Shown here: positions 4,107 through 59,155 of the stretch, piece by piece | Numbering within the stretch: the stretch's first letter is position 1 | Layout: each line of letters starts with the position of its first letter | Source of the DNA: an uncultured Pelagibacteraceae bacterium | GTDB lineage: Bacteria; Pseudomonadota; Alphaproteobacteria; Pelagibacterales; Pelagibacteraceae | Direction: 5' to 3' | Assembly: GCA_902586485.1 (NCBI GenBank) | Contig: CACIHO010000001.1 | Location: 62,001-126,000, forward strand | DNA length: 64,000 nucleotides | Notes under the pieces: model-generated | Told to the model about the DNA's origin: nothing | Database searches by the model: none | Seen by the model: only the letters and a program-made list of their open reading frames with translations | Program-made: the position numbers and the translations under genes

Positions 4107-4379
4107 TATATCTCCGTTAATTAATTTAGAAAATCACTAGAACACATCGATGAAAATATTGCAAATATCTTTCAACTATCAGTTGTAGTTAAATTGTCTT
4201 TAAATGATATTTATTAAGATATACTGTTTTTTTATGAAATTTTCTGCAAATTTTTTTTTTAAAGAGTTTGTCTATATTTTAAATTGCAAAACTGTATTTC
4301 AACAAATCATTATAAGAGAATCTTAAAATTTTAGCGTTAATTAATTCCAACTTAAAAAGGAGGTTTAATAAAAGTTGAA

Positions 4380-14676: not shown

Positions 14677-14858
14677 TGATAAAAAATATTTTAATAGTAG
14701 TTTTTATTATTATTGGTGCATTAGTAATTTATAATTTTAAAGATCATAATCAAAAAAGAGCGATCGAGGCATGTGTAGCTGGAACTAAAACATTGGAAAA
14801 ACCAATGACTGCTTCTGAGGCTAGAATATTTTGTGAGAAACAGATTAAAAATAATTAA
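14676..14858 (+). CDS. Small membrane-anchored protein, unknown function
   Basis: 60 aa, N-terminal TM (IKNILIVVFIIIGALVIYNF); start/stop overlaps with both neighbours. Confidence 0.6.
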   Translation: MIKNILIVVFIIIGALVIYNFKDHNQKRAIEACVAGTKTLEKPMTASEARIFCEKQIKNN

Positions 14859-29011: not shown

Positions 29012-29018
29012 GGAACAA

Positions 29019-29213
29019 GTGAGAAAAAATTTATTTGATTTTAATTTAAGTATTTCTCAAAATAACAGTCGTTCACTCGAAGGTCAGATAACTTGTGAAC
29101 CATGTTTGTCTGAGTGTGAAAAAATTAAAAAAAAAATAAATAATAGAAAATTATCAGAGATCAAAAATAATGATATTGATCATATCATTAATGTTTTTGG
29201 TTCAAAAGATTAA
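29019..29213 (+). CDS. Small cysteine-motif protein in the iron-transport operon
   Basis: 64 aa, GTG start, CEPCLSEC motif, lies between fbpA and fbpB. Confidence 0.5.
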   Translation: MRKNLFDFNLSISQNNSRSLEGQITCEPCLSECEKIKKKINNRKLSEIKNNDIDHIINVFGSKD

Positions 29214-29222
29214 TTTTCAAAA

Positions 29223-29271
29223 AGTGAACATAACTCAATAGTTATTTACCCTACTATTGATTATGTTCACT
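29223..29271 (+). other. Intercistronic hairpin upstream of fbpB
   Basis: AGTGAACATAA(c)TCAATAG ... CTATTGATTATGTTCACT, ~18-bp stem with one bulge; no following T-run. Confidence 0.85.
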
Positions 29272-29287
29272 GAAACAAAAGGGTAAA

Positions 29288-35113: not shown

Positions 35114-35404
35114 AATTTACTTTTAAGGGTTCGCTCTTTAAGCGAATACCTAAAGAGCTCCCTTTTTTAAGCCTCTTTGGCGTTTTAATCCAAACGGATT
35201 TTAATGTTATTAACTTTTTTGGTATTTAAAAGACTTCAGCTAAGTATCAGGTGGTGAAAGTATTAACATAAACCTCCTTCTTAAAAAAAGGTAATTATAT
35301 TTAATACAAATTCAATAAATTTATTTCAGTTTTGGTTAAATAAAATTCTTGAATACAACCTGGTGCTTTAGTAGATTCCCGGTATCTAATTTATCTATTT
35401 TAAA
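35114..35404. ncRNA. Candidate structured RNA locus in convergent intergenic region (class and strand unassigned)
   Basis: Unusually long gap; hairpins at 35128-35150, 35152-35178, 35187-35200 with mutually exclusive CTCTTT/AAAGAG pairings; minus-strand SD + 9-codon ORF at 35240-35269. Confidence 0.45.
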
Positions 35405-58989: not shown

Positions 58990-59155
58990 TATTTTCCTTA
59001 TAAGTTGTATTTAATCTATCTAACTTTAAAAGATTGTTACATTTTTACGAATGAGTCTCTTGTGTTTATAACGCGCGACAGATATGCATTTTGAGAGTGT
59101 AAAAAATGTTGATTATGCTGTTTTATTTAATTTAAATATTTGATAGTAATTACTT

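Follow-up and report, generated by a model that had tools for sequence, protein, structure and literature searches.

The longest intergenic spacer in the window (the whole 64,000-nucleotide stretch of DNA that was analysed) very probably contains an independent, single-copy RNA gene of Pelagibacteraceae, which would be transcribed from the minus strand and, judging from its conservation, combines a Shine-Dalgarno sequence, a mini-ORF of 6-9 codons and a 3' module of three hairpins. On comparative grounds, its identity as a previously unnamed structured RNA family absent from Rfam is secure. The complete statement, in which this gene identity is taken together with the ribosome-pausing mechanism described below, is in our judgement somewhat more apt to be right than wrong. 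In sense order, the gene consists of a promoter-like block, a 5' hairpin, the Shine-Dalgarno sequence, the mini-ORF and then hairpins B, C and D:

35118..35362, minus strand: whole RNA gene of about 240 nt, delimited by the conservation profile, the homologs and the fold (z -3.9), with putative exact ends
35364..35389, minus strand: promoter-like block GATACCGGGAATCTACTAAAG, including a -10-like TACTAA (35373-35368) and kept upstream of the 5' hairpin in genus g1
35303..35361, minus strand: 5' hairpin with the invariant 5' arm AGGTTGTATTCAA (35361-35349)
35272..35279, minus strand: perfect Shine-Dalgarno AAGGAGGT, present in all loci found by BLAST and in nearly all others
35240..35269, minus strand: mini-ORF ATG TTA ATA CTT TCA CCA CCT GAT ACT TAG, predicted to encode MLILSPPDT-stop and conserved in frame
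35187..35200, minus strand: hairpin B, AATCC-GTTT-GGATT, two-sided compensatory changes in 5 of 5 pairs
35171..35181, minus strand: hairpin C, GCC-AAAGA-GGC, two-sided changes in 3 of 3 pairs
35125..35164, minus strand: hairpin D at the 3' end, AAGGG-A-GCTCTTTA...TAAAGAGC-GAA-CCCTT, two-sided changes in 8 of 13 pairs

The spacer (35114-35404, 291 bases) is the longest between the 72 ORFs of the window, in which the median spacer is 1 base, and it is flanked by convergent ORFs, a cytochrome c556-like one on the plus strand and a beta-hydroxyacid dehydrogenase on the minus strand. The preliminary description had noticed this unusually long gap between convergent genes in a window with spacers of mostly a few base pairs, and it was right on both counts. 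Its suggestion of a structured region was also borne out. Compared to shuffled sequences, both the plus and the minus strand of the spacer form more stable folds (z -2.6 and -2.7, respectively), and the trimmed minus-strand transcript (35362-35120) reaches -54.7 kcal/mol versus -38.4 +/- 4.2 for shuffles (z -3.9, with none of 200 shuffles as good), which is a much better folding case than the whole-spacer strands. The G+C-rich blocks mentioned in the same description exist locally (33% at 35118-35275), but the spacer overall has a lower G+C content (28%) than the window (31%). Among the three hairpins it proposed, AATCC-AAAC-GGATT (35187-35200) is correct and conserved; the letters of TTCGCT/AGCGAA (really at 35130-35146) and AAAGAG...CTCTTT are present, but both were drawn in the wrong register relative to the conserved stem derived from 57 homologs, in which GCTCTTTA and TAAAGAGC pair 35133-35140 with 35151-35158 within AAGGG/CCCTT.

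BLAST searches with the spacer retrieved full-length relatives with about 65-83% identity from numerous same-genus genomes, and a covariance model (R1) was built from 57 sequences. A profile of conservation along the locus goes up at about 35380 and drops after about 35120. When the 57 sequences were aligned by MAFFT and thus not fitted to a structure, nine pairs exhibited two-sided changes and 95% of the cells could pair, compared with 22-55% for slid alignments. An alignment of 41 sequences including divergent relatives, which was fitted to the model and hence leans towards the model structure, revealed compensatory changes in 16 of 21 pairs, with 97.8% of the cells pairing versus 33-60% when slid. 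In other genera, hairpin C has a GNRA-like GAAA loop. The 3' hairpins, read in the minus sense, contain G.U in 56 cells and A.C in 13, an excess that agrees with minus-strand sense; together with the frame conservation of the mini-ORF, this bias rules out a plus-strand RNA carrying the anti-Shine-Dalgarno-like ACCTCCTT. The region had been put forward as a candidate novel ncRNA, against which a lack of conservation, a lack of covariation or a match to a known RNA would count. None of these was found, and the homologs, the strong covariation and the absence of an Rfam match support the proposal. What had been overlooked is the minus strand, the 5' half with its promoter-like block and the conserved Shine-Dalgarno and mini-ORF, as well as the conservation of the RNA independently of its neighbours.

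The conserved Shine-Dalgarno and mini-ORF suggest that the RNA is not just noncoding but undergoes translation as well. The mini-ORF is intact and in frame at 199 of 201 loci (M...P[D/E]x-stop, 6-9 codons), and the intact copies comprise 47 distinct sequences and 33 peptides, nearly all of the form M...PP[D/E]T-stop, with TAG, TAA and TGA each used as stops. Since the mini-ORF pattern search may bias the sample, further relatives were sought by the covariance model; in addition, an equivalent Shine-Dalgarno and mini-ORF was present at each of the 30 loci that had been retrieved solely by BLAST. Changes were then counted on a tree built without the mini-ORF. At least 13 changes were counted in the spacing between Shine-Dalgarno and ATG, 9 of them in phase modulo 3, and at least 6 in the length from ATG to stop, every one by whole codons. 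The stop codon was replaced at least 5 times, each time by another stop, and the Asp/Glu codon underwent at least 8 changes, all within the set GAC, GAT and GAA. These frame, stop and synonymous changes are a signature of translation, and the only fixed part of the predicted product is PP[D/E]x-stop. In HTCC1062, the mini-ORF ends with CCA CCT GAC ACA TAA (versus ACT TAG), by which the peptide is kept and the local CUGA/UUAG pairing is broken. A hairpin over the mini-ORF end predicted by RNAalifold (CCAcCUGA..UUAGcUGG) was rejected, as it has no covariation and natural ACA TAA variants break its pairing. Other genera have MSPPET-TGA or MSPPEI-TAA. At two intact loci a single Pro is found (MLNLPDT and MLKLPDT), which weakens an absolute requirement for Pro-Pro.

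If the peptide of 6-9 residues were itself the product (a signal or inhibitor), with the hairpins acting as mRNA stabiliser and terminator, the conservation at the peptide level with freedom at third positions and stop codons would be expected, as would the very strong Shine-Dalgarno. However, the N-terminal half is almost free (MLILS-, MNQM-, MK- or MS-), the length varies from 6 to 9 residues, and the covariation of the hairpins far exceeds the needs of a terminator, all of which makes a peptide product improbable. Two RNA copies (L189 2077-2223 and L224 2092-2237), both located directly after the same dehydrogenase gene, have no intact mini-ORF. They look like decaying copies because the start codon, the 5' hairpin and the promoter-like block have also been lost.

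The strong Shine-Dalgarno is unusual for this organism, as GGAGG occurs upstream of only 3 of the 72 window ORFs. This rarity of a perfect 8-nt Shine-Dalgarno in the window would suit a decoy, in which the sequence and its tiny ORF capture initiating ribosomes through the anti-Shine-Dalgarno and damp translation. Such a role seems quite unlikely to us, however, because it leaves the conserved PP[D/E]T plus stop unexplained and because the Shine-Dalgarno is trimmed or altered at some loci (GAGGAGG, AGGGAGG). The Shine-Dalgarno and the Pro-Pro codons have complementary sequences (AGGAGGU/ACCACCU) that are invariant in the consensus fold; no covariation of this pairing was detected at any of the aligned loci. 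In thermodynamic folds the Shine-Dalgarno is usually paired, with partners that differ by clade, so that a sequestration switch is tentative. A closing stem between the 5' AGGU and the Pro-Pro codons, which appears in the window fold but in the predictions for just 5 of 55 relatives, was discarded.

Upstream of the Shine-Dalgarno, 89% of the pairs of the 5' hairpin are standard, versus 37-53% when slid; two-sided covariation is lacking here because the 5' arm AGGTTGTATTCAA is invariant. This hairpin is missing from the other genera that have the RNA and is thus a feature of genus g1, where it may function at the DNA level or in initiation. A simple scan for sigma-70 sites gave no consensus promoter at 35364..35389, and we infer from its position and its -10-like motif that the GATACCGGGAATCTACTAAAG block may be one. 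The 13 bases of AGGTTGTATTCAA (35349-35361, minus strand) are nearly invariant within the genus and their pairing partner varies, which makes a second role besides the hairpin probable, such as a start site, a protein site or a seed.

With regard to distribution, a search with the Shine-Dalgarno/mini-ORF pattern found 128 of 397 Pelagibacterales genomes to be positive, with at most one copy each, and the reversed-pattern control produced zero matches; among the pattern matches shown, all named contigs belong to Pelagibacteraceae or Pelagibacterales. The covariance model detected the RNA in 76 of 149 near-complete Pelagibacterales genomes (genera g1 and g14), and in about half of such genomes it has thus either often been lost or been missed. 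One genome of genus g12 was added by an improved covariance model and a second one by the pattern, which also identified a g15-labelled genome whose assignment may be mistaken. The RNA is thereby present in four genera of Pelagibacteraceae. Across 190 genomes of the class, the covariance model gave no credible match outside the family, the absences in sister genera being weak evidence, and neither did the MSPPE pattern in 385 class genomes. A class match in one genome (G571, E 0.049) lacks a mini-ORF and was treated as chance, and a weak second match in another (G150) falls in coding-like DNA without a mini-ORF. Moreover, the pattern search of 2.9 million viral contigs yielded no match. With one match per genome and none in viral contigs, a mobile or repeated element (REP, BIME or IS remnant) was rejected.

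The gene downstream of the RNA is convergent at 190 of 193 classified loci and belongs to many unrelated families, which argues for a stand-alone RNA and against a leader. For the same reason, a cis-acting leader, attenuator or riboswitch was rejected, and the layout of the loci indicates an RNA that is a self-contained unit or exerts its action in trans. Of 190 loci, 99 have a co-directional gene on the 5' side and 91 a divergent one, and the divergent cases imply that the RNA has its own promoter. In many of the relatives, the two genes that flank the RNA in the window are missing from the locus, and neighbours there include aminotransferase/photolyase, methyltransferase, DoxX-like, DUF952/SMR-transporter and folD/argG genes. 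On the 3' flank of L001-L030, the convergent gene has been swapped between unrelated families among closely related genomes, which suggests a small gene-turnover hot spot on this side of the RNA.

Hairpin D adjoins the convergent gene, whose stop codon is usually no more than about 25 nt away, and in some but not all genomes it is followed by a U-run, including on the plus strand; it may terminate both convergent transcripts. These features are also what would be expected if no separate RNA gene existed and the whole element were a mere conserved bidirectional terminator or a 3' UTR belonging to the convergent gene on the plus strand. We regard this as very improbable, since the conservation extends 240 nt further, up to the 5' hairpin, the element persists next to convergent genes from many different families, and the G.U bias and the mini-ORF fix the minus strand.

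The impression that the region fits no recognised RNA class was confirmed by comparison with known families. Rfam 15 gave zero matches at the gathering score in the window, with only sub-threshold noise at the locus, and zero matches at E<=1 for eight divergent relatives. The tag ORF of tmRNA has no Shine-Dalgarno, whereas the mini-ORF has a perfect one as well as a start codon, and ARAGORN and Rfam found neither tmRNA nor tRNA in the window; this class was therefore rejected. So was 6S RNA (RF00013), which had no match and differs in architecture, the consensus here being serial local hairpins rather than a single rod closed by paired ends. With RF00013, no 6S RNA was detected in the genome of the window or in 20 related genomes, although 5 of 14 control genomes were positive, Caulobacter among them. 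SAR11, as represented by these 21 Pelagibacterales genomes, may either lack 6S RNA or have a strongly diverged form. Compared to dual-function small RNAs, the family has the conserved covarying structure and, at the level of sequence, the conserved translated ORF, and the layout of its loci would call for a transcript separate from those of the neighbours.

The RNA also occurs in HTCC1062 (762691-762859, minus strand), within the 335-bp spacer between SAR11_0785 and qacH. At locus L220, which has the same neighbours as this spacer (762678-763012), the gap between the flanking ORFs is exactly 335 bp. The HTCC1062 spacer was listed in Table 1 of Meyer et al. 2009 (PMC2704228) with 76 BLAST hits, and spacers with <200 BLAST hits were removed in that study, so that this one was dropped from examination; the locus is the same, and no RNA, structure or ORF was named there. 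Our literature search on SAR11 transcription likewise returned no description of an RNA at this locus. The SAR11_0636 element reported in the same paper is similar in that it is another RNA candidate from SAR11 for which separate transcription was proposed on the grounds of variable neighbours, but it is located in a 165-bp spacer at another locus, forms a three-stem junction and has no reported mini-ORF (PMC2704228).

As to function, we tentatively propose a ribosome-pausing sensor. Pro-Pro-Asp/Glu-type motifs are known to slow ribosomes, which need EF-P and charged prolyl-tRNA to pass them. Ribosomes would load on the perfect Shine-Dalgarno of the mini-ORF and pause at the Pro-Pro-Asp/Glu codons, and a paused or passing ribosome would cover the segment from CCACCTGA to the stop, which could otherwise pair with the Shine-Dalgarno or fold locally. 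The occupancy by ribosomes would then determine how the RNA folds, how stable it is or whether it is available for pairing; a change in fold or stability is what the complementarity of the Shine-Dalgarno to the Pro-Pro codons and its usual pairing in predicted folds lead us to expect. In this way, the RNA could inform targets about the state of translation (EF-P, proline or the supply of ribosomes), and the stand-alone layout with no gene behind implies that such an output would be in trans. The more specific reading, a stand-alone translation sensor whose Pro-Pro stalling mini-gene converts EF-P activity, prolyl-tRNA or ribosome supply into an RNA signal, is more speculative still. Leader peptides of the mgtL class offer a parallel, as their very short ORFs slow ribosomes by Pro codons and EF-P dependence beside a refolding RNA, but they are located in cis before the regulated gene, while the SAR11 RNA stands alone. 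Another parallel is rnTrpL/peTrpL of Sinorhizobium, a small alphaproteobacterial RNA with a short ORF led by a Shine-Dalgarno and with hairpins (PMC7298713). This attenuator-derived leader RNA and its peptide act in trans (PMC7298713). Different from it, the SAR11 RNA has no biosynthetic operon behind it and Pro-Pro instead of Trp codons, and the two have no sequence relation shown.

A base-pairing small RNA would share the stand-alone, single-copy and convergent layout. According to this possible but doubtful alternative, the A-rich linker and hairpin loops pair with mRNAs, the mini-ORF mainly protects or times the RNA, and Pro-Pro is no sensor. The conserved A-rich linker and the loops between the mini-ORF and hairpin B would fit such pairing. 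However, the element with the strongest conservation between genera is the end of the mini-ORF, (S)PP[D/E]x-stop, which has been kept through synonymous and stop-to-stop changes, while the linker and loops vary.

Small RNAs that are structured and contain a translated ORF are already known, and the novelty lies in the combination of a stand-alone position, a structured RNA and a minimal Pro-Pro mini-ORF around which it is built. We know of no described pattern in which a Pro-Pro mini-ORF of 6-9 codons is the most conserved part and no gene lies behind it. In the streamlined genomes of SAR11, as seen from the median spacer of 1 base in the window, an RNA of 240 bases that persists in four genera amid swapped neighbours is likely to be useful. 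If the sensor reading is true, translation status would be signalled in trans without a downstream gene in cis in very abundant ocean bacteria. Expression, translation and pausing are directly testable in HTCC1062, which is cultured and sequenced.

Besides the spacer described here, the window contains four further long ones: 29012-29287 (276 bases), 4107-4379 (273), 14677-14857 (181) and 58990-59155 (166). None of them matched any Rfam family at the gathering threshold. The spacer at 4107-4379 is located between divergent genes and contains a perfect AAGGAGGT at 4357.
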